Positions 17,806-63,890 of a stretch of DNA of 64,000 bases are shown piece after piece. Origin of the DNA: Haematobia irritans (Eukaryota; Arthropoda; Insecta; Diptera; Muscidae). A model generated the notes under the pieces. The model did not search any database, had not been told where the DNA came from, and saw nothing but the letters and a program-made list of their open reading frames with translations. Numbering within the stretch: position 1 is the stretch's first letter; the number at the start of each line of letters is the position of its first letter. The stretch lies in the NCBI RefSeq assembly GCF_050003625.1, contig NC_134398.1, positions 20,906,997 to 20,970,996 on the forward strand. The letters run 5' to 3'. A program made the translations under genes and the position numbers.

Positions 17806-18076
17806 GGGAAATATTGACAAAATTGTCTATAGAACTAAAATTTTTACAAAATTTTCCATAGAAATAAAATTGTGACAAAATCTTCTGTAGAAATAAAATT
17901 TTGACAAAATTTTTTATAGAAATAAAATTTTGCTAAAATTTTCTATAGAAATAAAATTTTGACAAAATTTTCTATAGAAATAAAAATTTGCGAAAATTTT
18001 CTATTGAAATAAAATTTTGACAAAATTTCCTATTGAAGGAAATTTTTGACAAAATTTTCTATAGAAATAAAATTTT

Positions 18077-18420: not shown

Positions 18421-19527
18421 AAAATTTTGACAAAATTTTTTACCAAAATAAAATTTTTACAAAACTTTATATAGAAATAAAATTTTGACAAAATTCCCTA
18501 TTGAAATAAAATTTTGACAAAATTTCCTATAGAAGTACAATTTTGACAAAATTTATTATAGTAATAAAATTTTAACAAAATCTTCTATAGAAATAAAATT
18601 TTGATGCAATATTCTATAGAAATAAAAATTTTACAGAATTTTTTATAGAAATATAATTTTGTTACAGTTTTCTACACAAATAAAATTTTGACAAAATTCC
18701 CTATTGAAATAAAATTTTGACAAAATTTCCTATAGAAGCAAAACTATCAACCAATTATCAGAATAAATTCAGGCAGTTCATTACACCCAAAAATGAACCA
18801 CACTTGAACCTTCCGAAAAAAGGTTTTGTATGATAGCCGACTTATGCCGACATAAATTCGAAATAAACATGTCTCTTTTCCTATGCCACTGTCAAATCAT
18901 CATAAAATTTTGACAAAATTTTTTACCAAAATAAAATTTTTACAAAACTTTATATAGAAATAAAATTTTGACAAAATTCCCTATTGAAATAAAATTTTGA
19001 CAAAATTTCCTATAGAAGTACAATTTTGACAAAATTTATTATAGTAATAAAATTTTAACAAAATCTTCTATAGAAATAAAATTTTGATGCAATATTCTAT
19101 AGAAATAAAAATTTTACAGAATTTTTTATAGAAATATAATTTTGTTACAGTTTTCTACACAAATAAAATTTTGACAAAATTCCCTATTGAAATAAAATTT
19201 TGACAAAATTTCCTATAGAAGCAAAACTATCAACCAATTATCAGAATAAATTCAGGCAGTTCATTACACCCAAAAATGAACCACACTTGAACCTTCCGAA
19301 AAAAGGTTTTGTATGATAGCCGACTTATGCCGACATAAATTCGAAATAAACATGTCTCTTTTCCTATGCCACTGTCAAATCATCATAAAATTTTGACAAA
19401 ATTTTTTACCAAAATAAAATTTTTACAAAACTTTATATAGAAATAAAATTTTGACAAAATTCCCTATTGAAATAAAATTTTGACAAAATTTCCTATAGAA
19501 GTACAATTTTGACAAAATTTTCTATAG
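18256..19527 (-). repeat. 483-bp higher-order repeat combining F and the 29-bp array
   Basis: Units start at 18256, 18738 and 19221 (steps of 482 and 483 bp). Each joins a ~165-bp F piece, starting 'gcaaaactatcaacc' on plus, to ~318 bp of 29-bp repeats. Units two and three are essentially identical until the third breaks off near 19520, and the first differs at a few sites. This is a recent tandem amplification of the junction. Confidence 0.9.
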
Positions 19528-21540
19528 ACACAAAATTTTGGCAAAATTCCCTATAGAAATAAATTTTCGAGAGAGATAAAATTTTTATAGAATTTTCGAT
19601 AGAAATAAGATTTTGACAAAAAATCTCATAAAAATACAATTTTGACAAAAATTTCTATAGAAGTACAATTTTGACAAAAGTTTCTATAGTAAAAAAAAAT
19701 TGACAAAATCTTCTATAGAAATAAAATTTTGACAATATTTTCCATAACAATAAATTGACAAAATTGTCTATAGAAATAAAATTTTGACAAAATTTTCTAT
19801 AGAAATAAAATTTTGACAAAATTTTCTATAGAAATAAAATTTTGACAAAATTTTTTATAGAAATAAAAATTTTACAGAATTTTTTATGGAAATAAAATTT
19901 TGTTAAATTTTTCTACAGAAATAAAATTTTGACAAAATTTCCTATTGAAATAAAATTTTGGCAAAATTTCCTATAGAAGTACAATTTTGACAAAATTTTC
20001 TATTGTAATAAAATTTTGAAAAAATCTTCTATAGAAATAAAATTTTGACAAAATTTTCAATAGAAATAAAATTTTGACAAAATTTTCTATAGAAATAAAA
20101 TTTTGACAAAATTTTCTATAGAAAGAAAAATTTTACAGAATAACAATAAATTGATAAAATTTTCTATAGAAATAAAATGTTGATAAAATTTTCTATAGAA
20201 ATAAAATTTTGAAAAAATTTTCTATAGAAATAAGAATTTGACAGAATTTTTTATAGAAATAAAATTTTGTTAAATTTTTCTACAGAAATAAAATTTTGAC
20301 AAAATTCCCTATTGAAAAAAAATTTTAACAAAATTTTCTATAGAAATAAAATTTTGACAAAATTTTCTATAAAAATAAAATTTTGACAATATTTTCCATA
20401 ACAATAAATTGATAAAATTTTCTATAGAAATAAAATTTTGACAAAATTTTCTATATTTGACAGAATTTTTTATAGAAATAAAATTTTGTTAAAGTTTTCT
20501 ACAGAAATAAAATTTTGACAAAATTTCCTATAGAAGTAAAATTTTGACAAAAATTTCTATAGAATTAAAATTTTGACAAAATCTTCTATAAAAATAAAAT
20601 TTTGACAATATTTTCCATAACAATAAATTGATAAAATTTTCTATAGAAATAAAATTTTGACAAAATTTTCTATAGAAATAAAATTTTGTTAAAGTTTTCT
20701 ACAGAAATAAAATGTTGGTTAGTGTTTCAATAGAAATAAAATTTTGAAAAAAAAATCTATAAAGATAAAATTTTTGATAAAATTTTCTATAGAAATAAAA
20801 TTTTGCGAAAATTTTCTATAGAAATAAATTTTTGTCAAAATTTTATATAGATTTAAATTTTTAACAAAATTTTCTATTGAAATAAAATTTTGACACAACT
20901 TTCTATAGAAATAAAATTTTACGAAAATTTTCTATAGAAATAAAATGTTCTATAGAAATAAATTTTTGATAACATTTCTATAGAAATATAGAAATAAATT
21001 TTTGCGAACTTTTTCGATAGAAATAAAATTTTTACAGAATTTTCTATAGAAATAATATTTTGACAAAAATTTCTTTAGAAAATTATTGACAAAATTTTCT
21101 ATAGAAATAAAATATTTCGAACATAAATAGAAATAGAAATAAAATTTTTGACAAAATATTCTCTAGAAATAAAATTTTGACAAAATTTGCTATAGAAAAA
21201 AATTGAGAAAATTTTCTACAGAAATAAAATATTGCGAACATTTTCTATAGAAATAAATTTGCGACAAAATTTTCTATAGAAATAAAATTTTGACAAAATT
21301 TACTACAGAAATAAAATTTTGACAAAATTTTCTATAGAAATAAAATTTTGACAAAATTTATTACAGAAATAAAATTTTGACAAAATTTTCTGTAGAAATA
21401 AAATTTTACGAAAATTTTCTATAGAAATAAACTATTGATAAAATTTTCTATAGAAATAAAATTTTGCGAAAAATTTCTATAGAAATAAAATTTTGCAAAA
21501 AAGTTTCAATACAAATAAAATTGTGCTATTTTTTTAATTC

Positions 21541-23826: not shown

Positions 23827-26318
23827 AAAACAAGTAAGGAAAGTCTAAAGTCGGGCGGGGCCGACTATATTATACTCTGCACCACTTTGTAGATCTAAAT
23901 TTTCGATACCATATCACATCCGTCAAATGTGTTGGGGGCTATATATAAAGGTTTGTCCCAAATACATACATTTAAATATCACTCGATCTGGACAGAATTT
24001 GATAGACTTCTACAAAATCTATAGACTCAAAATTTAGACACTAGGGTGGAACACAATGTTAGTAAAAAAATATGGGAAAGATTTAAATCGGAAGCAATGT
24101 TAAGGAAACTACGCAAAAGTTTATTTATGATTTATCGCCCGATATATATATGTATTTGAAGTTAAGGATAATTACAGCCAGTTTTACAATTTTTCGACTA
24201 AGCACAGGCGATTTTACAAGGAAAATGTTGGTATTTTGACCATTTTTGTCGAAATCAGAATCAAATATATATGAGAGCTATATCTAAATATGAACCGATT
24301 TCAATCAAATTTGACACGCATAGCAACAAAGCTAATTTAACACCCTGTGCAAAATTTCAACTAAATCGGAGTAAAAAATTGGCCTCTGTGGTCATTTGAG
24401 AGTAAATCGGTCGAAAGCTATATATGCGAGCTATATCTAAATCTGAACCGATTTCAATCAAATTTGGCACATTTGACTACACTATTAATTGTACTCCTAG
24501 TGCAAAATTTCAACCAAATTTGGCCAAAACTATGGCATCTAGGACCATATTAGTCCATATCGGGCGAAAGATATATATGGGAGCTATATCTAAATCTGAA
24601 CCGATTTCAATAAAATTTGGCACACTTGACGACACTACTAATTGTACTACTAGTGCTAAATTTCAACCAAATTGGGCCAAAACTCTGGCTTCTAGGACCA
24701 TATTAGTCCATATCGGGCGAAATATACAGTATGTCAAGAAAGTGTTTTGACAATAGGATAAAAATTATGTTTTATTCCAAAATTAAATATAATTTAATTT
24801 TAAAAAATATTTTATTATGTATTTTGCAAAGTATACATATTTTATTTTTCTCAAAACGAATTAACAACTCGATTTTTACTTCAATTATTTCTGGAATTTT
24901 AAATATTTGGCAATGTCAAAAGACTTTCTTGACATACTGTATATACAGGAGCTATATCTAAATCTGAACCGATTTCAATAATATTTGGCACACTTAACTA
25001 TACTTCTAATTGTACTCCTAGTGCAAAATTTCAACCAAATTGGACCAAAACTCTGGCTTCTAGGACCATATTAGTCCATATCGGGCGAAAGATATATATG
25101 GGAGCTATATCTAAATCTGAACCGATTTCAATCAAATTTTGCACACTTGATTATACTACTAATTGTACTCGTAGTGCAAATTTTCAACCAAATTCGGCCA
25201 AAAATCTGGCTTCTAGGACCATATTAGTCCATATCGGGCGAAAGATATATGGGAGCTATATCTACATCTGAACCGATTTCAATAGAATTTGACACACTTG
25301 ACTACACTACTAATTGTACTCCTAGTGCAAAATTTCAACCAAATTGGGACGAAACTCTGGCTTCTAGGACAATAGTAGTCCATATCGGGCAAAAAATATA
25401 TATGGAAGCTATATCTAAATCTGAACCGATTTCTATCAAATTTGGCACACATGACTATACTACCAATTGTACTCCTTGTGCAAAATTTCAAGCTAATCGG
25501 GATAAAACTCTGGCTTCTGGGTCCATATAAGCGCATATCGGGCGAAAGATATATATGGGAGTTATATCTAAATTTGAATCGATTTCAACCAAATTTGGCA
25601 CGCATAGCTACAATGCTAAATCCCTGTGCAAAATTTCAACCTAATTGGGCCAAAACTCTGGCTGTTAGGACCATATTAGTCCATATCGGGCGAAAGATAT
25701 ATATGGGAGCTATATCTAAATCTGAACCGATTTCAATCAAATTTTGCACACTTGACTATACTACTAATTGCACTCCTAGTGCAAAATTTCAACCAAATTC
25801 GGCCAAAAATCTGGCTTCTGGGGCCATATAAGTCCATATCGTGCGAAAGATATATATGGAAGCTATATCTGAATCTGAACCGATTTCAACCAAATTTTGC
25901 ACACTTGACTATACGACTAAGTGCTATATTTGTACAAAACTTCAAGCAAATCGGTGTAAAACTCTGGCTAATGGGTCCATATTAGTGCATATCGGGCGAA
26001 AGATATATATGGGAGCTATATCTAAATCTGAACCGATTTCTTCCAAAATCAATAGGGTTCTATTCTGACCCAAATTAGGAACATGTGCCAAATTTGAAGG
26101 CGATTGGACTTAAACTGCGACCTAGACTTTGATCACAAAAATGTGTTCGCAGACAGACGGACGGACGGACAGACGGACATGGTTATATCGACTCAGGGAC
26201 CCACCCTAAGCATTATTGCCAAACACACCATGTGTCTATCTCGTCTCCTTCTGGGTGTTACAAACATATGCACTAACTTATAATACCCTGTTCCACAGTG
26301 TGGCGCAGGGTATAAAAA
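23827..26318 (+). mobile_element. Family B element, near full length
   Basis: The 5' end is AAAACAAGTAAGGAAAGTC, then a GTCGGGCGGGGCCGAC palindrome, then TATACTCTGCACCAC. The 3' end has a CGGACGGACGGACAGACG run, a CCACAGTGTGG hairpin, GGCGCAGGGTATAAAAA. The 5' and 3' CCCTGC(A/G)CCAC-type boxes (5' copy CTCTGCACCAC) are inverted to one another. The core holds roughly a dozen 153-bp monomers (phase at 24581, 24949 after correcting for an insertion, 25102, 25253, 25405). A 213-bp MITE sits inside. No coding capacity; DINE/Helentron-like by structure (inference). Confidence 0.85.
24727..24939. mobile_element. 213-bp Tc1/mariner-type MITE
   Basis: Both ends read CAGTATGTCAAGAAAGT inward, 17 identical bases, and the next eight differ at one position. 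TA flanks both sides (24725-24726 and 24940-24941). Removing it restores the 153-bp monomer spacing of the host. The interior is AT-rich with no coding capacity. The high identity of the ends suggests a young insertion. Confidence 0.92.
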
Positions 26319-26327
26319 TGGAAAGAA

Positions 26328-27922
26328 AAACAAGTATATACGGCCGTAAGTTCGGCCAGGCCGAAGCTTATGTACCCTCCACATGGATTGCGTAGAAACT
26401 TCTACTGAAGAATGTCATCCACAGTCTTACAACTTCCTAACACTGTCTTCTAAATTACAAGGTAGTCCATACGTAGTATATATTAAACTATTAAATACGT
26501 ATATAATTAAGTTTAAAGTTTCTATAGAAATAAAATTTTCACACAATAAAATTTTGACTACATTTTCTATAGAAGTAAAATTTGGAAAAAAATTTCTATA
26601 GAAATAAAATTTGGAAAAAAAATTCTATGGAAATAAAATTTTGACAAAATTTTCTATAGAATTAAAATTTTGACAAAATTTTCTATAGAAATAAAATTTT
26701 TACAAAATTATCTATAGAAATAAAATGTTGACAAAATTTTCTATAGAAATAAAATTTTGACAAAATTTTCTATAGAAATAACATTTTGACAATGTTTTCC
26801 ATAAAAATAAAATTTTGGTAGATTATTTATGGCTCGAGTGGCAACCATGAATATGAACCGATATGGACCAATTTTTGTGTGATTGGGGATCGGCTATATA
26901 TAACTATAGACCAATATGGACCAATTTTGGCATGGATATTAGCGGCCTTATACTAACACCACCTTGCAAAATTTAAACCGGATCGGATGAATTTTGCTCC
27001 TCCAAGAGGCTCGGGAGATCAAATCTGGGGAACGGTTTATATGGGGGCTATATATAATTATGGACCGATATGGACCAATTTTTGCATGGTTATTAGAGAA
27101 CTTATACCAACACCATGTACCAAATTTCAGCCGGATCGAATGACATTTTCGTTTCTTAGAGGCTCCGCAAGCAAAATCGGGGGATCGGTTTATATGGAGG
27201 CTATATATAATTATGGACCGATGTGGACCAATTTTTGCATGGCCATTAGAGATCATATACCAACACCATGTACCAAATTTCAGCCGGATCGGATGACATT
27301 TTCGTTTCTTAGAGGCTCCGCTAGCCAAATCGGGGGATAGGTTTATATGGGGGCTATATATAATTATGGACCGATGTGGACCAATTTTTGCATGGTTGTT
27401 AGAGACCACATGCTAACACCATGTACCAAATTTCAGCCGGATCGGATGAAATTTGCTTCTCTTAGAGACTCCGCAAGCCAAATTGGGGGTTCGGTTTATA
27501 TGGGGGATATATATTATTATGGACCGATGTGGACCAATTTTTGTATGGTTGTTAGAGACCATATACTAACACCATGTACCAAATTTCAGCCGGATCGGAT
27601 GAAATTTGCTTCTCTTAGAGCAATCGCAAGCCAAATTTTATATGGTGGCTATACGTAAAAGTGGACCGATATGGTCCATTTGCAATACCATCCGACCTAC
27701 ATCAATAACAACTACTTGTGCCAAGTTTCGAGTCGATAGCTTGTTTTTCGGAAGTTAGCGTGATTTCAACAGACGGACGGACATGCTTAGGTCGATTCAT
27801 AATTTCACCACGACCCAGAATATACATATATACTTTATGGGGTCTTAGAGCAATATTTCGATGTGTTACAAACGGAATGACAAAGTTAATATACTCCCAT
27901 CCTATGGTGGAGGGTATAAAAA
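26328..27922 (+). mobile_element. Family A element with internal 29-bp array
   Basis: Starts AAACAAGTATATACGGCCG with the palindromic GGCCGTAAGTTCGGCC, then TACCCTCCACATGG; ends with the CCTATGGTGGAGGG hairpin and GTATAAAAA. It abuts the family B copy with only about 10 bp between. A 300-bp 29-bp array plus a short module H separates the 5' region from the 153-bp monomers. ORFs in it on both strands follow the 153-bp period. Confidence 0.85.
26515..26815 (-). repeat. 29-bp array internal to family A element
   Basis: About ten minus-oriented units. The left junction lies just after 'aaatacgtatataatt', the family A site also used in the copy at 12376. The right junction is GGTAGATTATTTATGGC followed by 'gtggcaaccatg', a short module H. 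Confidence 0.9.
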
Positions 27923-30139: not shown

Positions 30140-31743
30140 TATACCCTCCACCATAGGATGGGGGTATATTAACTTTTTCATTCCGTTTGTAACACATAGA
30201 AATATTGCTCTAAGACCCCATAAAGTATATATATTCTGGGTCGTGGTGAAATTCTGAGTCGATCTGAGCATGTCCGTCCATCTGTTGAAATCACGCTAAC
30301 TTCCGAACGAAACAAGCTATCGACTTGAAACTTGGCACAAGTAGTTGGTATTGATGTAGGTCGGATGGTATTGTAAATGGGCCATATCGGTCCACTTTTA
30401 CGTATTGCCCCCATATAAACGGACGCCCAAATTTGGCTTGCGGGGACTCCAAGAGAAGCAAATTTCATCCGATCCGGCTGAAATTTGGTACATGGTGTTA
30501 GTATATGGTCTTTAACAACCGTGCAAAAATTGGTTTACAATGGTCCATAATTATATATAGCCCCCATATAAACCGATCCTCCTATTTGGCTTGCGAGGCC
30601 TCTAAGAGAAGCAAATTTCATCCGATTCGGCTGAAATTTGGTACATGGTGTTAGTATATGGTTTCTAACAACCATGCAAAAATTGGTCCACATCGGTCCA
30701 TAATTATATATAGCCCCCATATAAACCGATCCCCCGATTTGGCTTGCGAGGCCCCTAAGAGAAGCAAATTTCGTCCGATCCGGCTGAAATTTGGTACATG
30801 GTGTCAGTATGTGGTCTCTAACAACCATACAAAAATTGGTCCACATCGGTCCATAATTATATATAGCCCCCATATAAACCGATCCCCCGATTTGGCTTGC
30901 GAGGCCTCTAAGAGAAACAAATTTCATCCGATCCGGCTGAAATTTGGTACGTGGTGTTATTATATGGTCTCTAACAACCATACAAAAATTGGTCGACATC
31001 GGTCCATAATTATATATAGCCCCCATATAAACCGATCCCCCGATTTGGCTTGCGAGGCCTCTAAGGGAAGCAAATTTCATCCGATCCGGCTGAAATTTGG
31101 TACGTGATGTTAGTATATGGTCTCTAACAACCATGCAAAAATTGGTCCACATCGGTTCATAATTATATATTGCCCCCATATAAACCGATCACCTCCGGAA
31201 CCTCTTGGAAGACCAAAATTCATCTGATTCAGTTGAAATTTGGTACGTGATGTTAGTATATGATATTTAACAACCATGCCAAAAGTGGTCCATATCAGTC
31301 CATAATCATATATAGCCCCCATATAAACCGATCCCGAGATTTGGTTTTGGAGCCACTAGTAGGAGCAAATTTCATCCGATTGAGTTGAAATTTGGTACAT
31401 TGTGCTAGTATATGGTCGTTAACAATCATGCCTAACTAGGTCCATATCGGTCTATAGTTATATATGGCCCTCAGATAAATCGATCCCCAATCACACAAAA
31501 ATTGGACCATATCAAGTTCATAATTGTATATAGCTTCCATATAAGCGACCCCCATATTTCAATTCTGGCTCTCTACGTATGGACTAAATCACAATTTAGA
31601 AAACGATGTTAAGAAGTTTTAAGATACCACAAACCAAGTAATTCGATTGTGGATGATAGTCTTTCGTAGAAGTTTCTACGCAATCCATGGTGGTGGGTAC
31701 ATAAGATTCGGCCTGGCCGAACTTGCGGCCGTATATACTTGTT
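30140..31743 (-). mobile_element. Family A element, full length, no array
   Basis: The 3' hairpin (TACCCTCCACCATAGG and ATGGGGGTAT) is at the left and the 5' GGCCGTATATACTTG end at the right. Tandem monomers have an exact 153-bp phase (30568, 30721, 30874, 31027). Since 153 is 3 x 51, ORFs stay open across monomers on both strands (minus 30535-31179; plus 30658-31107), which argues against real coding. It is the cleanest A copy in the window. Confidence 0.88.
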
Positions 31744-33480: not shown

Positions 33481-33489
33481 CAGGAAGCC

Positions 33490-34090
33490 TTGTAGCTTTT
33501 CACCGCGTCAACTACAGTATCCTCATGAATCATGTTTTCAGGTCAGTCTAGTATGCTACTTGATCTAGAGGGTATCTGGATTTCGACATGAGGCATCCTA
33601 TCGCAGTTTTAAGCGCAGCGTTCTGATACATGTGTATGTTCTTCCCGAACGTGTTTACCACTGACCTCCAATTGCCTTATATGTAGCCAACAAGGTTTCT
33701 TTGTCCGCACCCCAAGGACTGCCGGCAAGCAACTTAACTGACTGAAAATTTTCAGGTATATTTTAGTCGGAATTATATCTGCCAGAAGCTTTGTAGCTTT
33801 TCACCGCTTCAACTACAGTATCCTCATGAATCATATTTTCAGGCCAGTCTAGTATGCTAACTGATCTAGAGGGTATCTGGATTTCGACATGAGGCATCCT
33901 ATCGCAGTTCTAAGCACAGCGTTCTGATACATGTGTATGTTCTTCCCGAACGTGTTTACCACTGACCTCCAATTGCCTTATATGTAGCCAACAAGGTTTC
34001 TTTGTCCGCACCCCAAGGACTGCCGGCAAGCAACTTAACTGACTGAAAATTTTCAGGTATATTGTAGTCTGAATTATCTCTGCCACCCAA
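33490..34090 (-). repeat. 301-bp tandem duplication within the LINE remnant
   Basis: TTGTAGCTTTTCACCGC begins at 33490 and again at 33791. Both copies carry the RT C-terminal region (WGADKETLL motif) with only scattered differences, so a 301-bp block was duplicated after or during decay. Confidence 0.9.
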
Positions 34091-35659: not shown

Positions 35660-36210
35660 TAACCTGTGGTACATTGCTTGAGGTGCTCTAACCATAGACT
35701 CTGCTTGTGGTCGTCGACAATCTTACCAATCTCTGGATTCAGTTCCCTGATTCTTGGATCGCTGTTGATGGTATTGGTAACCTCGGTTGGCGTGTGTCGC
35801 TGGCTTGGATTGTTTGATGTGCTCTAACCATAGGCTCTGCTTGTGGTCGTCGACTATCTTACCAATCTCTGGATTCAGTTCCCTGATTCTTGGATTGCTG
35901 TTGATGGTATTGGTAACTTCGGTTGGCGTGTGTCCCTGGCTTGGATACCATGGAGGCGATGAATGGCTCTCCCTTTCGCTCTATCAACCGGGATACTAAA
36001 CAAACTGTTTGTTGAAAAACCTAGGGCATTTTTTCCGTCACATCGCCAAAGGTGACTAAGATCTTATCACCTATTATAGCGGGGTTAGAGAAGGCTCTAC
36101 TGTTGACCACAAGTTGCATGTGTCACATTGCTTCAGGTGCTCTAACCATGTGTTCTGCTTGTTCTCGTCGACTATCTTACCAATCTCTAGATTCAATCCC
36201 CTGATTCTTG
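35660..36210 (-). repeat. Internal duplications of the LINE linker region
   Basis: The segment 'tctgcttgtggtcgtcgac' with 'ctctggattcagttccctga' recurs near 35700, 35840 and, more diverged, 36150. The same linker part of the LINE has been copied in tandem. Confidence 0.8.
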
Positions 36211-36929: not shown

Positions 36930-39000
<2,071 letters not shown>

Positions 39001-39185
39001 TATTTCCATAGAAATTTATGATAATATGGTATTATGGGGAAGTAAAGAAGTGGATATTAAGTTTCCAAAAATATGGACAATTATAAAATGCAATGTCAAA
39101 GACAACTTAGAATAAGATGGATAATTACACTCCCTCTCAAAAAATTATTTATTGAAAAATTAAATAACGATTTTTCTATCTTCCA

Positions 39186-39264
39186 TAAAAATAAAACAAC
39201 TAAAGACAGTCTAAATTGGAGCGAGGCTGACTAAATTACACCCACTTTGTTAATGAAAATTTTC
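39186..39264 (+). mobile_element. Degenerate family B 5' fragment
   Basis: 'aaacaactaaagacagtcta' with 'gaggctgactaaattacac' and 'cactttg' resembles the first 80 bp of family B with many substitutions. Confidence 0.55.
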
Positions 39265-39880
39265 TATCAAAATAAAATTTTGAAAAATTTTTTTATAGAA
39301 ATAAAATTTTGATAAATTTTTCTATAGAAATAAAATTTTGCCACAAAAATCTATACAAAAAAAATTTTGACAAACTTTTTCTATAGAAATAAAACTTTGA
39401 CAAAATTTTCTATAGAAATGAAATTTAGACAAAATTTTCTATAGAAGTGAAATCTTGACAAAATTTTCTATAGAAATAAAACTTGGACAAAATTTTGAAA
39501 AAATTTTCTATAGAAAAACAATTTTCTATAGAAAATCAATAGAAATAAAATGTTGAAAAAAATTTTGTAGAAATAAAATTTTGATAAAATTTTCTATAGA
39601 CATAAAATTTTGACAATGTTTTCGATAGAAATACAAATTTGCCAAATTTTCTAAAGAAAAAAATTTAAACAAAATTTTCTTTATTTAGATATAAAATTTT
39701 GCAAACATTTTCTATAGATATAAAATTTGGAGAAAACTTTCTATAGAAAAAAAAATTTACAAAATTTTATATAGAAATAAAATTTTGCAAAAATTTTCTA
39801 TAGATATAAAATTTTGACAACATTTCTTATGAAATAAAATTTTGACAAAATTTTCTATAGAAATAAAACTTTATTAATGT
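39265..39880 (-). repeat. 29-bp tandem array
   Basis: About 21 minus-oriented units running into the first F unit of the cluster at 39.9 kb. Confidence 0.92.
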
Positions 39881-40026
39881 TTGTTTGTTATTGTTGGTTT
39901 CCCTTCAATCGTTATTGTTATTTTTGATCTCAGCTTAAAACCATGCATTGACTAAACTACAAGTGTAGCTTAACCAACAGAGGGAAAAGTATGCTTGTCA
40001 AATTTATTTGCGCAAAGCCCTATAGA

Positions 40027-40095
40027 CTGCAAGATGGTTGGATGTACAGCTGTTTCGGAATTACCACATTCCTCATCAGCATCCTCTACTTGCAG
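40027..40095 (-). ncRNA. Hammerhead ribozyme, intact (tandem unit 1)
   Basis: Type I fold on minus. Outer stem I is CTGCAAG/CTTGCAG, separated by an internal loop from inner stem I GGATG/CATCC; the core CTGATGA follows. Stem II is GGAAT/ATTCC with loop GTGGTA, then GAAA, then the short stem III ACA/TGT. The cleavage triplet is GTA, allowed by the NUH rule. Predicted self-cleavage lies between 40045 and 40044. All core residues of the family are present, and the stem I internal loop could make the usual contact with loop II. The RNA would cut itself during or after transcription of F. Confidence 0.93.
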
Positions 40096-40452
40096 CAAAA
40101 CTATCAACCAATTATCAGAATAAATTCGGGTAATTCACTCAACCCAACGTGAAATACACTTGAACCTTCCGAAAAAGGGTTTAATAGTCGGCTACTGCCT
40201 AAACAAATTTGCCAGCATATCTCTTTTCCTTTGCCAAACTCAAATCATCGATTTGTATTTAGTTGGCTGGGTTTGTTTTGAGCGTGCTTCCTCTATCTTC
40301 ATTCGTTTTGTTTGTTATTGTTGGCTTCTCTTCAATCGTTATTGTTATTTTTGATCTCAGCTTAAAATCATGCATTGACTAAACTACAAGTGTAGCTTAA
40401 CCAATAGAGGAAAAGTAGGCTTGTCAAATTTATTTGCGCAAAGCCCTATAGA

Positions 40453-40521
40453 CTGCAACATGGTTGGATGTACAGCTGTTTCGGAATTACCACATTCCTC
40501 ATCAGCATCCTCTACTTGCAG
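40453..40521 (-). ncRNA. Hammerhead ribozyme, intact (tandem unit 2)
   Basis: Same sequence as the neighbouring ribozyme except that the last pair of outer stem I is lost (CTGCAAG against GTTGCAG). Core, stems II and III and the GTA triplet are intact. Predicted cleavage is between 40471 and 40470, exactly 426 nt from that of unit 1, so one transcript through both would release a 426-nt RNA. Confidence 0.93.
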
Positions 40522-40625
40522 CAAAACTATCAACCAATTATCAGAATAAATTCGGAATTCAATGTAGTTCACTTTGGGTTGAGTGAATTACCCGAATTTA
40601 TTCTGATAATTGGTTGATAGTTTTG

Positions 40626-40694
40626 CTGCAAGTAGTGGATGCTGATGAGGAATGTGGTAATTCCGAAACATCTGTACATCCAACCATCTTGCAG
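40626..40694 (+). ncRNA. Hammerhead ribozyme, intact, inverted copy
   Basis: Plus-strand copy with CTGCAAG/CTTGCAG, GGATG/CATCC, CTGATGA, GGAAT/ATTCC and GAAA all present. Stem III is ACA/TGT with loop TC instead of GC. Triplet GTA. Confidence 0.92.
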
Positions 40695-40790
40695 TCTATA
40701 TGCTTTGCCCAAATAAATTTGACGAGCTTGTAGTTAGTCAATGCATGGTTTTAAGCAGAGATCAAAAACAACAATAACGAAATAAAACTT

Positions 40791-41595
40791 TGACAAAATT
40801 TCCTACAGAAGTAAAATTTTGACAAAATTTTCCATAGAAATAAAATTTTGCACAAATCTTTTGTAAATACAAAATTTTGCAAATTTTTTTCTACACAAAT
40901 AAAATTTTAACAAGATTTTCTATAGATAAGAAATTTTGCAAAAATTTTCTATAAATATAAAATTTTGCAAAAATTTTCTACAGAAATAAAATTTTGACAA
41001 AATTTTCTATAGAAATAAAATTTTGCAACAATTTTCCATTGATGTAAAATTTTGTAAAAATTTTCTATAGAAATAAGATGTTCACAAAGTTTTCTGTTGA
41101 AATAAAATTTTGCAAGAATTTACGATAGAAATGCAATTTTGACAAAATTTACGATAGATATTAAATTTTGCAAAAATTTTCTATAGAAATAAAATTTTGC
41201 AAAAATTTTCTATAGAAATAAAATTTTGACAAGATTTTCTATAGAAATAAAAATTTGACTAAATTTTCTGTAGAAAGAAAATTTTGGCAATGTTTTCGAT
41301 AGAAATAAAAATTTTACAACATTTTCTAAAGAAAAAAAATTTAAACAAAATTTGCTTTATTTATTATATTTATAAATTTTTGCAATATATATTTTCTTTA
41401 GATATAAAATTCTGAGTAAAAAAAATTGACGAAATTTTCTATAGAAATAAAATTTTGATAAAATTTTCTATAGAAATACAAATTTGAGAAAATTCTCTAC
41501 AGAAATAAATTTTGAAAAATTTTTTTTTTTGGAAATAAAATACAATTTTGAGAAAATTTTCAATAGAAATAAATTTTGTAGAAATAAAATATTGT
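40791..41595 (-). repeat. 29-bp tandem array
   Basis: About 27 minus-oriented units, many with the variant TTTTGCAAAAATTTT in which the GAC centre is lost. Confidence 0.92.
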
Positions 41596-41599: not shown

Positions 41600-42686
41600 A
41601 TTTATACACTTCACCACTACTGTGGTACATGATATAATACGTGTGTGTGCATTTGTATGTAACGCCAAGAAATAGTAGTCATATACCGATCTTTTAGTAT
41701 ACCGATCGTCTTAGAATTAAATTCTGAGTCGATTTAGCGATGTCTGTCAGTCTGTATATGTAATTTTGTGTGCAAAGTACAGATCGCAGTTTAAGTCCGA
41801 TCATCCTCAAATTTAGCACAGAGTTTTACTCAAAAACAATCGCTACTGATTTTGAAAAATCGGTTCAGATTTAGATATAGGTGCCATATATATTCATCAC
41901 CGATCTGGTCATAATTGACGTATTTATCGACGCATTTTCTCAAAATTTCGTGCAGGCAAATGTTTTGGGGCTTTCGTGAGATATTGAAAACATCAGCCAA
42001 ATCGGTTCTGATTTAGATATAGCTCCCATATATATCTTTTGTCCGATTTGCACTTATATGGGCTCAAAAGCCAGGGTTTTGCCCTGAGTTGCTTCAAATT
42101 TTGCATAACAAATACGCCCAATAGTATCGGTAAGTGTGCCAAATTTGGTTAAAATCGGTTCAGATTTTGATATAGCTCCATTATATATCTTTCGTCCGAT
42201 TTGCACTTACATGGCTTCAAAAGCCAGAGTTTTGCCCTAATTTCCTTAAAATTGTGCACAAGGAATACGTTTAATAGTATCATTAAGTGTGCCAAATTTG
42301 GCTTAAATCGGTTCAGATTTAGATATAGCTTCCATATATATCTTTCGCCCGATTGACACCGGAGGCCAAAACTATTCTCCCATTTACGTTTTTTGCTGAA
42401 ATAGGCGGATTATTATTGTAACTATGCATGCCAAATTTGGTCAAAATTAGTTCGTGTTTAGATATAGCTCCCATATATATGTACGTCAGAGTATTTTAGA
42501 CCCATTTTCAATGGGAGTTTCTTCCAATTGACAGTTTCCACAAAGAATACATTTAATATGCTATTTAAGTGTGTCATCTTGATCTAACATGGCCAAATTA
42601 CCCACATTTTACACAAAATTCTGTGATGAATTTCCCACATCGTAGTCATATCCTACACGCTGTAATGCCAAACAAACCACAGAACA
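41600..42686 (-). mobile_element. Family B element, 5'-truncated
   Basis: The 3' hairpin region is at the left ('cttcaccactactgtggtac', then 'gtcgatttagcgatgtctgt'). Monomers with the ~153-bp period follow (TAGCTCCCATATATATCTTT boxes near 42020, 42180 and 42330). It stops abruptly at 42686, where module F sequence starts, so its 5' region is lost. Confidence 0.82.
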
Positions 42687-42880
42687 GTTTTGCTGCAAAT
42701 AGGGGATGCTGATGAGGAATGTGGTAATTCCGAAACGTGCGTCCATCCAACCATATTGCAGTCTATAGGGCTTTGCCCAAATAAATTTGAAAAACAATAT
42801 TTTCCTCTGTTGGTTAAGCTACTTATGTAGTTTAGTCAACGCAATGTTTTTTTAAGCTGAGATCAAAACAACAAATATAA
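42687..42880 (+). mobile_element. Module F partial copy with hammerhead
   Basis: Begins within F just upstream of the ribozyme (GTTTTGCTGC) and runs to the A/C-rich end near 42878, followed by a short minus array. Confidence 0.85.
42693..42761 (+). ncRNA. Hammerhead ribozyme, intact core, GTC type
   Basis: Core CTGATGA, stem II GGAAT/ATTCC, GAAA and stem III ACG/CGT with a GTC cleavage triplet, then inner stem I CATCC pairing GGATG. The pair next to the internal loop in outer stem I is lost (A opposite A). Predicted cleavage is just before 42744. Confidence 0.92.
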
Positions 42881-47630: not shown

Positions 47631-48002
47631 AATTAACAAAATTTCCTACAGAAATAAAATTTTTTATAGAAGTAAAATGTTGACAAAATTTTGTGTAGAA
47701 ATAAAATTTTGAGAAAACCTTCTATAGGAATAAAATGTTGACAAAATTTTCTATAGATACAACGTTTTGACAAAAGTTTCTATAGAAATAAAATTTTGGC
47801 AAAACTTTCTATAGAAATAAAATTTTGGCAAAAGTTTCTATAGAAATAAAATTTTGACCAAATTTTCTATAGAAATAAAATTTTGACAAAATTTCTTACA
47901 GAAATAAAATTTTGAAAAAAAAATTTCAATAGAAATAAAATTTTATGAAAATTTTCTATAGAAATAAAATTTTGACAAAATTTTCTATAGAAATAAAATT
48001 TT
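47631..48002 (-). repeat. 29-bp array leading into module F
   Basis: About 12 minus-oriented units. The last reads GAAATAAAATTTTGTTGTTG and passes straight into the F end, the recurring junction. Confidence 0.92.
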
Positions 48003-48114
48003 GTTGTTGTTTTTTATTGCAGCTTAAAACCATACATTGACTGAACTACAAGTGTAGCTTAACCAACAGAGGAAAAGAATGTTTGTCAAATTTATTTGGG
48101 CAAAGCCCTATAGA

Positions 48115-48183
48115 CTGCAAGATGGTTGGATGGACGCACGTTTCGGAATTGCCACATTCCTCATCAACATCCTCAACTTGTAG
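48115..48183 (-). ncRNA. Hammerhead ribozyme, core change (left arm)
   Basis: All stems are recognisable and the cleavage triplet is GTC, but the core reads TTGATGA, not CTGATGA. The first core C normally pairs with the core G, so a T there should weaken activity. One mismatch in outer stem I (CTACAAG/CTTGCAG). Confidence 0.82.
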
Positions 48184-48567
48184 CAAAACTATCAACCAAT
48201 TATCAGAATAAATTCAGACAGTTCATTAAACCCAACAATAAGCCACACTTAAACCCTCCGAAAAAAGGTTTTACATTGATAGCCGGCTTATGCCGAAATA
48301 AATTCGAAACAAACATATCTCCTTTCCTATGCCACTGTCAAATCATCGATTTGAATTCAGTTGGCTGGGTTTATTCTGAGTGTGCTTCCTTTTCTTTTTT
48401 CATTCTTTTTGTTTTGTTTTCGATGATTTGACAGTGGCATAGGAAAAGAATTTATTCGGCTTAAGCGCCTATCAATGTAAAACCTTTTTTCGGAGGGTTC
48501 AAGTGTGGTTTATTGTTGGGTTTAATGAACTGTCTGAATTTATTCTGATAATTGGTTGATAGTTTTG

Positions 48568-48636
48568 CTACAAGTTGAGGATGTTGATGAGGAATGTGGC
48601 AATTCCGAAACGTGCGTCCATCCAACCATCTTGCAG
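48568..48636 (+). ncRNA. Hammerhead ribozyme, core change (right arm)
   Basis: Carries the same TTGATGA core change, the same loop II change (GTGGCA) and the same outer stem I mismatch as the left-arm copy. It is therefore the inverted twin, not an independent insertion. Confidence 0.82.
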
Positions 48637-48790
48637 TCTATAGGGCTTTGCCCAAATAAATTTGACAAACATTCTTTTCTTCTGTTGGTTAAGCTACACT
48701 TGTAGCTTAGGCAATGCATGGTTTTAAGCTGAAATCAAAAATAACAACAATGATTATAGAAAGAAACCGACAATAACAAAACAAAACGAA

Positions 48791-49800
48791 TTTGACAAAA
48801 TGTTTTGACAATTTTTTCTATAGAAATAAAATTTTCTATGGAAGTAAAATTTTGACAAAATTATATATAGAAATAAAATTTTCTGTAGAAATAAACTTTT
48901 GACAAAACTTTCTTTAGAAATAAAATGTTGACAAAATATTCTATGGAAATAAAAATTTGACTAAATTTTCTATAGAAATAAAATTTTGACAATTTGTTCC
49001 ATAGAAATAAAATTTTTCAAAAATTTACTAAAGAAATAAATATTTGAGAAAATTTTCTATAGAAATCAATAGAAATAAAATAAAACCTATAAAAATAAAA
49101 TTTTGACAAATTGTTCTATAGAAATAAAATTTTGACAAAATTGTATATAGAAATAAAATTTTGACAAAACTTTCCATAGAAATAAAATTTTGACAAAAAT
49201 TTGTGTAGAAATATAATTTTTACAAATTTTTCTATAGAAATAAATATATGAGAAAATTTTCTATAGAAGGAAATATCTGAGAAAATTTTCTGTAAAACCC
49301 AATTTTAAGAATATTTTCTATAGAAATAAAATGTTGACAAAATGTTTTATAGAAATAAAATTTGACAAAATTTTCTATAGAAATAAAATTTTGCAAAAAT
49401 TTTCTTTAGAAATAATATTATGACCAAGTGTTCTACAGAAAGTAAAATCTTTAGAAGTAAAATTTTAATAAAATTTTCTACAGAAAAAAAAATTGACAAA
49501 ATTTTTTATAGAAATAAATTTTTGACAACATTTTGTATAGAAGTAAAATTTTTAGAAAACTTTCTATAGGAATAAAATGTTGACAAAATTTTCTATAGAA
49601 ATAGAATTTTGCAAAAATTTTATATATAAATCAATTTTAAGATAATTTTATCTAAAAATTAAATTTTTATAAAATTTTCTCTAGAAAGAAAAGTTTTGAC
49701 AAAATTTTCTATAGAAATAAAATTTTGACAAAATTTTCTCTAAAAATAAAATTTTGATACAATTTTCTATAGAAATGAAACTTTTGAAAAAAAAAAAAAA
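48791..49800 (-). repeat. 29-bp tandem array
   Basis: About 34 minus-oriented units, degenerate toward the right edge where an A-run ends the array near 49800. Confidence 0.92.
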
Positions 49801-51472
<1,672 letters not shown>

Positions 51473-51639
51473 TCGAAGCTCTGTTTAACGAATACCCCAT
51501 TTAGCGAAAATCCAATTTAACGAACGACCAAATTTTTAACATTGTGTATTCTAAATAACGAACGGTTGAACAAAATTTACGTTCGATTTAACAAAAATGC
51601 TTCTAATCTTAAGAAAATAAACAACAAAAAATCAGCAAT

Positions 51640-55039: not shown

Positions 55040-55725
55040 AAAGTAAGTAAGTAAAGTCTAAAGTCGGGCGGGCCGACTATATTGTACCCTTCACCACTAT
55101 GTAGACCAAAATTTGTGTTACCATCTCAACTTCTTCAAATTATTATGAAGGTTTATATACTCATATACAAATATTTATATCTTAGGCGACTTGGAGACAA
55201 TTTTTTATACTTCTACAAAATCCCTAGAATTAAAATTTAAACGGGCTAACACTCAGGGATGAAACACAATGTTAGTATAGCAATATGAGAGATATAAAGC
55301 TAGAGCAATTTTAATGCAATTGCATTTATAATTTATGTGACGATTCATATGTATTCGAGACAGAGGACATTTTGGCGATTTTACAAAGATTTGGCCAAGT
55401 CGAGCAATATTTCCATAAGTCGGAGCCTTATTCCAAACTCGACCGTTCTGTGGAAAGACTGGCATTACAGTGTGTAGGATATGACAACGATATGGGAAAT
55501 CATCACAGAATTTTGTGTAAATTGTGGGTATTTTGACCATATCTGTATAAACCGGAAGAACAAATACATGGAAGCTTTATCTCAAGCAGAACCAAATAAA
55601 ATCAAACCTGACACACTTAAGTAGCATATTAAATATTTTCTCTGTGGAAACTATCGAGTCAATTGAAGGAAAATCGAAAATGGGTCTAAAATATGAAACA
55701 TTCTACAATATTCCCCAACTTTGGC

Positions 55726-56058
<333 letters not shown>

Positions 56059-56351
56059 CAGCGTTTCCACAATTAATTTTTATTTTTGACCAACATTTGG
56101 ACCAAAATTGGACCAAAATTGGACCGAAATTCGTACCAAGCGGACCATTTTTCCAAATTAAATTACTATCAATAAAAAGTTAAAATTTTTTCAAAAATTT
56201 TACTTCGTTAAAAAGTTTTGTCAAGTTTTTATTTCTATATAAAATAATGTCAATATTTTATTTTTATATAAAATTATGTCAAAATTTTATTTCTATAGAA
56301 AATTTTGTCAAAATTTTATTTCTATAGAAAATTTTGTCAAAATTTTATTCT

Positions 56352-56413
56352 TTAAGCTGAGATAAAAAACAACAATAACGATTGAAGAGAAGCCAACAAT
56401 AACAAACAAAACG
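56352..56413 (+). repeat. Module F end fragment
   Basis: 'tttaagctgagataaaaaac' followed by AACAATAACGATTGAAGAG and 'caataacaaacaaaacg', the last ~60 bp of F, with array on both sides. Confidence 0.8.
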
Positions 56414-57282
56414 AAAATTTTATTCCTATAGCAAATTTTGTCAAAATTTTATTTCTACATAAAATTATGTCAAAATTTTATTTCTTTAGAAAATTTTCGC
56501 AAAATTTTATTCCTATAGAAAATTTTGCAAAATTTTATTCCTATAGAAAATTTTGTCAAAATTTTATTCCTATAGAAAATTTTGTAAAAATTTTATTTCT
56601 CTACAAAATTTTTTAAAAATTTTATTTCTATAGAAAATTTTCTCAAAATTTTATTTCTATAGATAGTCATCGCAAGATTTTATTTCTATATAAAGTTTTT
56701 ACAAAATTTTCTTCCTATACAAAATTTTTGCATAATTTTGTATGTATATACAATTTTTTTAAATTTTATTTCTGTACAAAATTTTTTTAAATTTTATTTC
56801 TGTACAAAATTTTTGCAAAATTTTATTTCTATAGAAAATGTTGTTAAAGTTTTATTCAGAACATTTTGTCAAAATTTTATTTCTACAGAAAATGTTGTTA
56901 AAATTTTATTCAGAAAATTTTGTCAATATTTTATTTCTATAGAAAATTTTGTCAAAATTTTATTTCTATACAAAATTTTGTCAAAATTTCCTTTCTTTAG
57001 TAATTTTTGTCAAAATTTCCTTTCTTTAGCAATTTTTGTCAAAATTGTATGTCTATAGAAAATTTTGTAAAAATTTTATTTTTTAAAAAATTTTGTAAAA
57101 ATTTTATTTCTATAGAAAAATTTTTAAAAATTTTATTTCTATCGAAAATGTTCTCAAAATTTTATTTCTATATAAAATTTTTACAAAATTTTCTTCCTAT
57201 ACAAAATTTTTGCATAATTTTGTATGTATATACACTTTTTTAAAGTTTATTTCTGAACAAAATTTTAGCAAAATTTTATTTC

Positions 57283-57695
57283 GTTGTTGTTGTTTTTTAT
57301 TTCAGCTTAAAACCATACATTGACTAAACTACAAGAGTAGCTTAACCAACAGAGGAAAAGAATGTTTGTCAAATTTATTTGGGCAAAGCCCTATAGACTG
57401 CAAGATGGTTGGATGGAGTTGGAGTTTATTAATAAACTGCCTGAATTTATTCTGATAATTGGTTGATAGTTTTGCTGCAAGTAGAGGATGCTGATGAGGA
57501 ATGTGGTAATTCCGAAACGTGCGTCCATCCAACCATCTTGCAGTCTATAGGGCTTTGCCCAAATAAATTTGACAAACATTCTTTTCCTCTGTTGGTTAAG
57601 CTACTCTTGTAGTTTAGTCAATGTATGGTTTTAAGCTGAAATAAAAAACAACAACAATGCTTAAAGAACAAAACCAACAATAACAAAACAAAACA
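57283..57695. mobile_element. F inverted pair with one hammerhead
   Basis: A truncated F on minus (57283-57418) is joined to a longer F on plus (57419-57695). The outer ~130 bp of the two are complementary. Only the plus copy retains the ribozyme. Confidence 0.88.
57475..57543 (+). ncRNA. Hammerhead ribozyme, intact, GTC type
   Basis: All helices pair fully: CTGCAAG/CTTGCAG, GGATG/CATCC, GGAAT/ATTCC and ACG/CGT. The core is CTGATGA and GAAA, cleavage triplet GTC, predicted cut just before 57526. This is the best-preserved GTC-type copy in the window. Confidence 0.94.
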
Positions 57696-59051
57696 AATGG
57701 AAAATTTTATTTCTATAGAAAATGTTGTCAAAATTTTATTTCTACATAAAATTATGTCAAAATTTTATTTCTTTAGAAAATTTTGCAAAATTTTATTCCT
57801 ATAGAAAATTTTGTCAAAATTTTATTCCTATAGAAAATTTTGTAAAAATTTTATTTCTCTACAAAATTTTGTAAAAATTTTATTTCTCTACAAAATTTTT
57901 TAAAAATTTTATTTCTATAGAAAATTTTCTCAAAATTTTATTTCTATAGATAGTCATCGCAAGATTTTATTTCTATATAAAGTTTTTACAAAATTTTCTT
58001 CCTATACAAAATTTTTGCATAAATTTGTATGTATATAAAATTTTTTTAAATTTTATTTCTGTAGAAAATTTTTGCAAAATTTTATTTCTATAGAAAATGT
58101 TGTTAAAGTTTTATTCAGAACATTTTGTCAAAATTTTATTTCTACAGAAATTGTTGTTAAAATTTTATTCAGAAAATTTTGTCAATATTTTATTTCTATA
58201 AAAAATTTTGTCAAAATTTTATTTCTATACAAAATTTTGGCAAAATTTCCTTTCTTTAGCAATTTTTGTCAAAATTTCCTTTCTTTAGCAATTTTTGTCA
58301 AAATTTTATTTCTATAGAAAATTTTGTAAAAATTTTATTTCTATAGAAATTTTTCGCAAAATTTTATTTCTATAGAAAATGTTTTTAAAATTTTATTCAG
58401 AAAATTTTGTCAAAATTTATTTCTATATGAAATTATATTATTATATATAAAATTATGTCAAAATTTTATTTCTATATAAAATATGTCAAAATTTTATTTC
58501 TATAGAAAATTTTGTCATAATTTTATTCCTATAGAAAATTTTCTCAAAATTTTATTTCTATACAAAATTTTGTCAAAATTTCCTTTTTTTAGCAATTTTT
58601 GTCAACATTTCCTTTCTTTAGCAATTTTTGTCAAAATTTTATTCCTATAGAAAATTTTGTCAAAATTGTATGTCTATAGAAAATTTTGTAAAAATTTTAT
58701 TTCTATAGAAATTGTTTGCAAAATTTTATTTTTATAGAAAATTTTGTAAAAATTTTATTTCTATAGAAAAATTTTTAAAAATTTTATTTCTATCGAAAAT
58801 GTTCTCAAAATTTTATTTCTATCGAAAATGTTCTCAAAATTTTATTTCTATAGATAGTCATCGCAACATTTTATTTCTATATAAAATTTTTACAAAATTT
58901 TCTTCCTATACAAAATTTTTGCATAATTTTGTATGTATATACACTTTTTTTAAGTTTATTTCTGAACAAAATTTTAGCAAAATTTTATTTCTATAGAAAA
59001 TGTTGTTGAAATTTTATTTATATAGAAATTTTTGTCAAAATTTTATTTATA

Positions 59052-59670
59052 TTGTTGTCTTTGATCTCAGCTTAAAGCCATGCATTGACTAAACTACAAG
59101 TGTAGCTTAACCAACAGAGTCTATAGGGCTTTGCCCAAATAAATTTGACAAGCATACTTTTCCTCTGTTGGTTAAGCTACACTTGTAGTTTAGTCAATGC
59201 ATGGATTTAAGCTGAGATAAAAAAAAACAACAATAACGATTGAAGAGAAGCCAACAATAACAAACAAAACGAATGAAGATAGAGGAAGCACGCTCAAAAA
59301 CAAACCCAGCCAAATACATTCAAATCGATGATTTGAGTTTGGCAAAGGAAAAGAGATATGCTGGCAAATTTGTTTAGGCAGTAGCCGACTATCAAACCCT
59401 TTTTCGGGATGTTCAAGTGTAGTTCACGTTGGGTTGAGTGAATTACCCGAATTTATTCTGATAATTGGTTGATAGTTTTGCTGCAAGTAGAGGATGCTGA
59501 TGAGGAATGTGGTAATTCCGAAACAGCTGTACATCCAACCATCTTGCAGTCTATAGGGCTTTGCCCAAATAAATTTGACAAGCATACTTTTCCTCTGTTG
59601 GTTAAGCTACACTTGTAGCTTAGTCAATGCATGGCTTTAAGCTGAGATCAAAAAAATCAAAAACAACAAA
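59052..59670. mobile_element. F hairpin followed by a longer F unit
   Basis: A short inverted pair of F ends (59060-59270) runs directly, through 'caaacaaaacgaatgaagat', into a longer plus-strand F (about 59270-59668). This shows the head-to-tail unit junction. Right edge AACAACAAATTTTATTTC is the recurring F-to-array junction. Confidence 0.88.
59481..59549 (+). ncRNA. Hammerhead ribozyme, intact, GTA type
   Basis: CTGCAAG/CTTGCAG, GGATG/CATCC, GGAAT/ATTCC with loop GTGGTA, GAAA, stem III ACA/TGT, triplet GTA. Identical in the core to the tandem pair at 40 kb, on the opposite strand. Predicted cut just before 59532. Confidence 0.94.
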
Positions 59671-61984: not shown

Positions 61985-63890
61985 AATTGTCTACAGCAAT
62001 AAAAATTTTTCAAAATTTTCTATAGAAATAAAATTTTGTCAAAAATTTCTATACAAATAAAATGTTGACAAAAATTTCAATAGAAATAAAATTTTGACCA
62101 AATTTTCTACAAAAATAAAATTCTAATAAAATTTTCTACAAAAATAAAATTTTGACAAAATTTTCTACAGAAATGAAATTTTGCCAAAATTTTCGATAGA
62201 CATAAAATTTTGACAAAAATTTCTATAGAAATAAAAGTTTGTCAAAATTTTCTACAAAAACAAATTTTTATAAAATTTTCTACAGAAATAAAAGTTTGTC
62301 AAAATTTTCTATAGACTTAAAAATTTTTCAAAATTTTCTATATACATAAAATCTTAACAAAATTTTCTATAAAAATAAAATTTTGTCAAAATTTTCTATA
62401 GAAATAAAAGTTAGATAAAACCTTCTACAAAAATAAAATTTTGACAAAATTCCCTATAGAAGCAAAATTTTTAGAAATTTTTCTATAGAAAAAAATTGAC
62501 AAATTTGTCTATAGAAATAAATTTTGAAACAGTTTTCTATAAGAATAAAAATTTGACAAAATTTTTTATAGAAATGAAATTTGAAAAAAATTCTATAGAA
62601 ATAAAATATTGACAAAATTTTCTATACAAAAAAAGTTTAACATAATTTTCAGTAGACATAAAATTTTGACAAAATTTTCTATGGAAATAAAATTTTGACA
62701 AAAAAAATCTATAGAAATAACAAAATTTTCTATAGAAATAAAAATTTGACAAAATTTTCTATAGAAATAAAATTTTGAGAAAAATTGCTATAGAAATAAA
62801 ATTTTGAGAAAAATTGCTATAGAAATAAAATTTTGATTAAATTTTTTATAGAAATATTTTTTTTGTTTTGTTATTGTGGGTTTTTTTCTTTTAATTATTG
62901 TTGTTGTTTTTTTGATTTCAGCTTAAAACCATGCATTGACTGAACTACAAGTGTAGCTTAACCAACAGAGGAAGAGAATGTTTGTCAAATTTATTTGGGC
63001 AAAGCCCTATAGACCGCAAAATTAGATTAGATAAAACTTTCTACAAAAATAAAATTTTGAAAAAATTCCCTATAGAAACAAATATTTTACAATTTTTTCT
63101 ATAGCAAAAAATTGACAAATTTGTCTATAGATATAAATTTTGAAACAGTTTTCTATAAGAATAAAATTTTGACAAAATTTTGTATAGAAATTAAATTTAA
63201 AAAAAAAATTCTATAGAAATAAAATGTTGACAAAATTTTCTATAGAAATAAAGTCTGAGATAATTTTCAGAAGACATAAAATTTTGACAAAATTTTCTAT
63301 ATAAATAAAATTTTAACAAAATTAAATAATTAATTAATAATTAAATTAAAAATTAATTAATAAAATTTTGAGAAAAATTTCTATAGAAATAAATTTAAAA
63401 AAAAAAATTCTTTAGAAATAAAATTTAAAAAAAAAATTATTTAGAAATAAAATTTTGACAAAATTTTCTATAGAAATAAAATTTTGAGAAAAATTTTTAT
63501 AGAAATAAAATAAAAACAATAAATTCTTTAGAAATAAAATTTAAAAAAAAATTCTTTAGAAATAAAATTTTGTCAAAATTTTCTATAGAAATAAAGTGTA
63601 GACAAAATGTTCTATAGAAATAAAATCTGAAAAAATTTTCAGTAGAAAAAAAAATTTAACAAAATTTTCTATAGAAATAAAAATTTGACAAAATTTTCTA
63701 AGAAATAAAATTTTGAGAAAAATTTCTATAGAAATAAAATTTTGATTAAATTTTTTATAGAAATAAAACTTTGTCAAAATGTTCTATAGAAATAAAATTA
63801 AAAAAAATATATATTCTATAAATATAACATTTAAAAAAAATATTCTATAGAAATAAAACTTTGTCAAAATTTTCTATAGAAATAAGAGAG
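61985..63890 (-). repeat. 29-bp tandem array
   Basis: Minus-oriented degenerate units, with an F fragment at 62850-63020. Blocks before and after F share variant runs (for example 'aaattgacaaatttgtctat' near 62490 and 63110), so part of the array was duplicated around F. It fades out before 63890. Confidence 0.92.
62850..63020 (-). repeat. Module F partial copy, no ribozyme
   Basis: TTTTGTTTTGTTATTGTGGG, CAGCTTAAAACCATGCATTG, 'ggcaaagccctatagaccgc', then breaks into array sequence just before the ribozyme would begin. Confidence 0.85.

Follow-up and report, generated by a model that had tools for sequence, protein, structure and literature searches.

Retrozymes with type I hammerhead ribozymes are already known in animals, with insects mentioned in the available part of PMC7229834, and what we say of that paper, as of PMC3846280, PMC7936874 and PMC3088659, refers to the available part of each. 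As the mover of animal retrozymes, Penelope-like elements (PLEs) are treated in PMC7229834 as only a strong candidate, and LINEs as well as PLEs are among the possible movers. PLEs are themselves known to carry hammerheads (PMC11167929). In these elements reverse transcription begins at an internal position of the RNA, within an AC-rich stem loop downstream of the hammerhead, and the interval between its two start sites equals the 30–40-bp tail; both target strands are cut and extended, the targets are AT-rich, and such an end pattern is termed unique to PLEs (PMC11167929). The commonest inverted form of Penelope is head-to-head; just one member of the inverted pair of pseudo-LTRs (pLTRs) bears the tail, and duplications measure 8–10 bp (PMC3846280).

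We analyzed a window of 64,000 nucleotides from Haematobia irritans (C2:20906997–20970996 in an assembly of 1,173,491,510 bp, or 1.17 Gb), in which a repeat family carries a hammerhead motif. Like the metazoan non-LTR retrozymes of PMC7229834, this family has short, non-coding tandem units of low G+C with one type I hammerhead each, and it may share with the invertebrate retrozymes of that source a helix III of two pairs plus a tetraloop. It differs from the metazoan retrozymes described there in the length of its unit (426–442 nt, compared with about 170–400) and in that the copies examined are mostly singles or head-to-head doubles with Penelope-like ends.

The resemblance to PLEs includes a hammerhead upstream of an AC-rich start, two starts and AT-rich targets, as well as a tail on one side, 38 bp here and 30–40 bp there (PMC11167929), and head-to-head inverted copies (PMC3846280). 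In contrast to PLEs, no reverse transcriptase or GIY-YIG frame was found in the unit or its copies, stem I of the hammerhead has an inner part of 5 bp and a long outer part, and the candidate target repeats are about 12 bp rather than the 8–10 bp given for Penelope in the available part of PMC3846280. Compared by description, dipteran type III hammerheads, including those of the house fly, likewise have an inner helix I of 5 bp that leads into an internal loop, but PMC7936874, so far as available, describes type III strand order and isolated termite motifs. What is new is that units resembling retrozymes and ends resembling those of Penelope occur together, and in very many copies.

The hammerhead literature for Diptera, Musca domestica, Stomoxys and house fly, searched by titles and abstract openings and including few subscription papers, yielded no description of this type I element. 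The original prediction that the element is undescribed in muscid flies holds to that extent, although house fly hammerheads of type III appear in PMC7936874. We propose that the family is probably a hammerhead retrozyme, non-coding and non-autonomous, mobilized by a Penelope-like enzyme. The motif, its copy number, the tandem and head-to-head structure and two clusters of 3′ ends are direct observations.

Hammerhead copies in the window

Nine full 69-nt copies with a type I layout are present in the window, three of them in the interval 39882–40790; both this number and the six intact cores agree with the original prediction.

40027–40095, minus strand: hammerhead, intact core; stem III ACAGCUGU, H17 = A; match to a family-independent descriptor
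40453–40521, minus strand: hammerhead, intact core; one outer-stem mismatch; in direct tandem with the 40027 copy, 426 nt apart
40626–40694, plus strand: hammerhead, intact core; stem III ACAUCUGU; descriptor match
42693–42761, plus strand: hammerhead, intact core; stem III ACGUGCGU, H17 = C; one outer-stem mismatch
57475–57543, plus strand: hammerhead, intact core; stem III ACGUGCGU, H17 = C; descriptor match
59481–59549, plus strand: hammerhead, intact core; stem III ACAGCUGU; descriptor match
18188–18256, minus strand: damaged hammerhead; GACA replaces GAAA
48115–48183, minus strand: damaged hammerhead; TTGATGA (C3 to U)
48568–48636, plus strand: damaged hammerhead; TTGATGA (C3 to U), identical inverted twin of the 48115 copy

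Each of the six intact copies has CTGATGA, GAAA, U16.1 and A or C as H17, and is built from an inner stem I (GGAUG/CAUCC), an internal loop, an outer stem (CUGCAAG/CUUGCAG), stem II (GGAAU/AUUCC) and a short stem III. The full set of type I features (CUGANGA, GAAA, NUH and three stems in type I order) is present in these six of the nine. Base pairing, earlier described as full, is interrupted by the outer-stem mismatches of the 40453 and 42693 copies. Stem III is short, as had been claimed, but three pairs would leave a 2-nt loop, so that two pairs with a tetraloop are as likely.

Chance expectation, Rfam and folding

We searched both strands of the window with a descriptor that fixes core residues and minimal pairing only and uses no family sequence. 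It matches exactly the six intact copies and nowhere else, with 0.002 matches expected by chance per window over both strands (one match in 60 Mb of first-order random sequence). The nine copies belong to a single related family and, in weighing chance, amount to one event; the earlier argument from copy number and pairing is thus upheld by the low expectation and not by the ninefold recurrence.

The Rfam covariance check, which had been proposed as a test, returned no significant hammerhead score in the window: the whole window gave no match at gathering score and no hammerhead at E up to 10, nor was there any match at E up to 10 in 40590–40730, around the 40626 copy. With 141 bases searched, Hammerhead_1 (RF00163) aligned to 57488–57528 at 16.1 bits (gathering 34, E 0.2), and in this alignment the core is in exact register with the consensus, including CGAAACG and CGUC. 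Given the sub-threshold scores, Rfam was set aside as a deciding test and kept for the register alone. The type I reading is accordingly supported by topology and six intact cores and not by a significant Rfam score, while the claimed likeness to the animal hammerhead type is borne out by core and stem layout, Rfam register and pairing across copies.

In monomer folding of 26 copies, the core is free in no minimum-energy fold, and the hammerhead fold of the six intact copies lies 5–8 kcal/mol above the minimum. Energy models do not score the hammerhead core, so these adverse folds are a caution. The anole Penelope hammerhead cleaved only when its protein was present (PMC11167929).

A dimeric hammerhead formed through a palindromic stem III was also considered. 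Hammerheads in interspersed repeats of another dipteran, Aedes aegypti, have a palindromic loop III able to pair in a dimer (PMC3088659, available part, compared by description). One copy co-folds into a full double hammerhead, yet only 4 of the 26 dimers have a free core, and a criterion applied alike to both sets was passed by 3 of 26 real copies compared with 71 of 200 random loops. Dimers of the present family are thus predicted no more readily than those of random loops, a difference from the Aedes case, and the idea was dropped.

Stem III covariation and genome-wide abundance

Among 59 copies in fetched DNA, mostly picked by core, the third pair of stem III is G-C in 38, A-U in 19 and unpaired in two. 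Twenty-nine of these copies are distinct, and 26 were used in the pairing analysis (L010, L027 and the divergent plus-strand copy of L049 being absent). In the 26, 93.8% of cells are paired, compared with 19–45% when the partners are slid. Two-sided changes occur in nine cells, compared with 3.8 in shuffles, and all fall at one stem III pair; the other 19 stem pairs show no compensatory change in these copies, and neither the number of pairs with two-sided change (1) nor the number of pair types (7) exceeds shuffles.

Genome-wide, with its neighbors fixed, this pair is G-C at 8,915 places, A-U at 4,084, G-U at 204 and A-C at 178, where independence would give 6,197, 1,366, 2,922 and 2,896, respectively. 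One stem III pair thus covaries, that is, compensatory change is present, and the counts stem from few subfamily events, not thousands. Among the matches listed in the pair counts, G at position 17 was seen by eye in 4 of 400 places; a hammerhead with G at this position would not cut.

An accidental or dead likeness to a hammerhead, without catalytic role, is compatible with the little support lent by Rfam and fold prediction, and copy number alone proves nothing against it, since all copies go back to few ancestors. A complete core with three stems at an expectation of 0.002, the exact consensus register in Rfam and a stem III pair changed on both sides with few intermediates nevertheless make this explanation extremely unlikely.

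Across the 1.17-Gb genome, exact matches to the stem II/core pattern number 12,942 (reversed control, 0). For a flank on the 3′ side of the ribozyme, 18,238 places match when two mismatches at most are allowed (control, 0); both counts refer to the exact patterns given. When copies were instead chosen by exact flank, within the range common to the flank and core lists (n = 75), an exact core lay at the right distance in 54 and was absent in 21, five of which retain the downstream half. Scanned viral and prokaryote contigs contained no match to the exact core.

The carrier unit and its arrangement

The unit, U, taken from the predicted cut in the 40453 copy to that in the 40027 copy, is 426 nt long, with U1 the first base 3′ of the cut. 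Unit length is about 426–442 nt, with one hammerhead per unit, a G+C of 0.376 and no long frame (the longest stop-to-stop stretch is 76 aa). An ATG-less open frame of 55 codons (57445–57612, plus strand) spans the hammerhead and continues past it; a protein search with this 55-aa read-through of the unit gave no relative.

The carrier occurs as tandems, 5′-truncated singles and head-to-head doubles, many copies thus not being tandem. In the window it takes the following forms, where "long" and "short" refer to the two classes of 3′ end (U160–179 and U129–138, respectively).

39880–40780: two direct tandem units (minus strand) plus an inverted copy, head-to-head; left 3′ end long, right short
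48001–48791: head-to-head double; left end short, right long
57281–57699: head-to-head double; left short, right long; left copy ends no more than 2 nt from the predicted cut
59050–59664: head-to-head double; both outer ends short, an exception to the one-long-one-short rule
8658–8860: head-to-head double of the 3′ segment only, without hammerhead
56351–56415, plus strand: 5′-truncated copy of 65 bp (U105–U169), between AAAATTTTATTC repeats
42686–42874, plus strand: 5′-truncated single with hammerhead
18075–18418, minus strand: single with the damaged hammerhead 18188
62861–63022, minus strand: 5′-truncated 3′ segment without hammerhead

In the window and the fetched loci L001–L050, 83 segments from 34 sources map to U, and 13 of them run unbroken for longer than one unit. 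Tandem periods in the window and the place lists are 426–452 nt, and at C3:79071330–79074408 eight direct units are followed by one inverted unit. Neighbors no more than 40 bp apart in the fetched DNA are head-to-head in 21 cases, direct in four and tail-to-tail in none, the duplicated copy of L049 being counted twice; since L001–L028 and L049–L050 were picked by exact core, and many of L009–L021 by core clustering, tandem and double counts are raised in this set. Among 100 listed flank places, which like the window were not picked by orientation or core clustering, neighbors within 1 kb are head-to-head in ten cases, direct in seven and tail-to-tail in one.

Head-to-head junctions would give long hairpins if transcribed, and the inverted repeat of one such junction (40522–40629) is matched by Rfam mir-283 at 36.3 bits (gathering 50). 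At 18255–19567, a 483-bp block consisting of array and a unit piece (U222–U377) is repeated 2.7 times at 98%.

Ends and insertion sites

The 3′ ends of the 83 segments fall into two clusters, with 33 at U129–138 (median 132), 26 at U160–179 (median 170) and 24 elsewhere. Both clusters lie in AC-rich sequence (U120–180), 38 nt apart. Doubles with both outer ends classed combine a long and a short end in 12 of 14 cases, with one long-long and one short-short; seven of the 21 doubles have an unclassified outer end and are excluded from the 14. The permutation p for this mixing is 0.019, with classes defined after viewing the histogram.

The 5′ ends are scattered and show no clear enrichment at the cut site: four of the 83 are no more than 5 nt away from it, where 1.9 would be expected. 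Copy starts were considered as a trace of cleavage, one (57415) lying within 2 nt, but in view of the overall figure no such trace is claimed. Copy starts near U17–27 may be connected with CTATAG, which is common to unit and array.

A spread at the DNA level, as a foldback DNA transposon or a satellite with the hammerhead as passenger, would suit the inverted repeats formed by the outer ends of doubles, the tandem arrays of copies and the amplified 483-bp block. It is very improbable, however, as many singles combine varied 5′ truncation with one of two 3′ ends, and the centers vary between doubles.

Outer 3′ ends adjoin AT-rich array in 45 of 59 classed cases. This array, a 29-bp AT-rich tandem repeat, accounts for 34% of the window's sequence and for 26% in a sample of 200 kb of unselected genomic DNA; its unit, AAAATTTTCTATAGAAATAAAATTTTGAC, occurs in both orientations (e.g., 1153–4153, 18419–21522 and 39256–39872). 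Two pairs of repeats flank elements in the window.

39860–39872, plus strand: candidate target-site duplication GAAATAAAACTTT, again at 40779–40791; seven bases separate the left copy from the element
56339–56350 and 56414–56425: AAAATTTTATTC repeats flanking the 65-bp truncated copy

For elements flanked by array, a direct repeat score of at least 12 was found in 12 of 25, compared with 22% when flanks were re-paired, scores of 21–25 reflecting array phase. Outside arrays, a score of at least 10 was found in 1 of 20, compared with 2% in controls; the clearest duplication there is at L011:1140–1889.

These target repeats of about 12 bp, together with 5′ truncation, would also suit target-primed insertion by a LINE, and LINEs are among the possible movers in PMC7229834. 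Reports on Penelope, by contrast, are matched by the excess of head-to-head copies and by the choice between two 3′ starts, with each side of a double using a different one, and we consider it improbable that the retrozyme is moved by an enzyme of LINE or other type that is not Penelope-like.

Proposed mobilization by a Penelope-like enzyme

We infer mobilization by a Penelope-like enzyme, which we favor, because the end, orientation and target marks match those published for PLEs. In this scheme a Penelope-like reverse transcriptase/endonuclease would use unit RNA, often multimeric, as template for insertion into AT-rich DNA, with reverse transcription starting at either AC-rich site, about 132 or about 170 nt downstream of the predicted cut. 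Both cut target strands would act as primers, and the resulting pair of cDNAs would frequently join head-to-head, the 38-nt tail being present on just one of them. By analogy with other animal retrozymes (PMC7229834), the most likely role of the hammerhead is to cleave multimeric transcripts into units, with circularization of these units a possible next step; seamless tandems fit uncut multimers and ligated circles alike.

Two-sided priming is contrary to the explanation of head-to-head copies preferred in the available part of PMC3846280, namely self-priming on an antisense template, and a separate start of reverse transcription for each side is contrary to the in vitro finding that start sites are alike on both strands (PMC11167929). 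In vitro insertion needed no hammerhead cleavage (PMC11167929). We regard as evenly balanced the wider proposition that thousands of hammerhead retrozymes in one animal genome, with a Penelope tail and two-sided head-to-head insertion, provide genomic evidence for Penelope-like mobilization and for the priming of a single insertion from both cut strands, with a different reverse transcription start on each side.

A search of the genome with the GIY-YIG model PF01541, which may miss Penelope endonucleases, found one locus, which looks like a host gene, and no Penelope-like protein. This locus is probably SLX1, beside MED31. In a Pfam scan of 10 of the 24 long frames in the window, no transposon domain was found. 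L049 was considered as an autonomous element and rejected, its spaced direct pair being a block duplication.

These results bear on whether the genome has an autonomous PLE to which the hammerhead belongs and whose pseudo-LTRs, solo or clustered, make up the copies. The integration marks would be the same, Penelope pLTRs bear hammerheads (PMC11167929), and they occur solo, in tandem and inverted (PMC3846280, available part). We consider this unlikely, as the tandem units of 426–452 nt have no long frame, the sole GIY-YIG match looks like a host gene and the only spaced direct pair examined, that of L049, is a block duplication.

Mobilization of a non-autonomous retrozyme by a Penelope-like enzyme, if true, would provide genomic evidence bearing on what moves animal hammerhead retrozymes, and the 12,942 core matches, the tandems and the end pattern make the question of the mobilizer testable by sequence and in vitro. 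With its many natural copies, the family would also allow study of how long a hammerhead stays intact once inserted, and of whether a protein is required for cleavage.

Other repeats in the window

A second tandem repeat, of about 153 bp, occupies 11010–11933, 24265–24726, 24940–26047, 26892–27636, 30378–31488 and 41999–42354. Tandem duplications of 301 bp (96%) at 33484–34085 and 136 bp (94%) at 35673–35946 are not AT-rich and are possibly coding. Long (TA)n runs occur at 38884–39003, 51402–51475 and 55723–56068.
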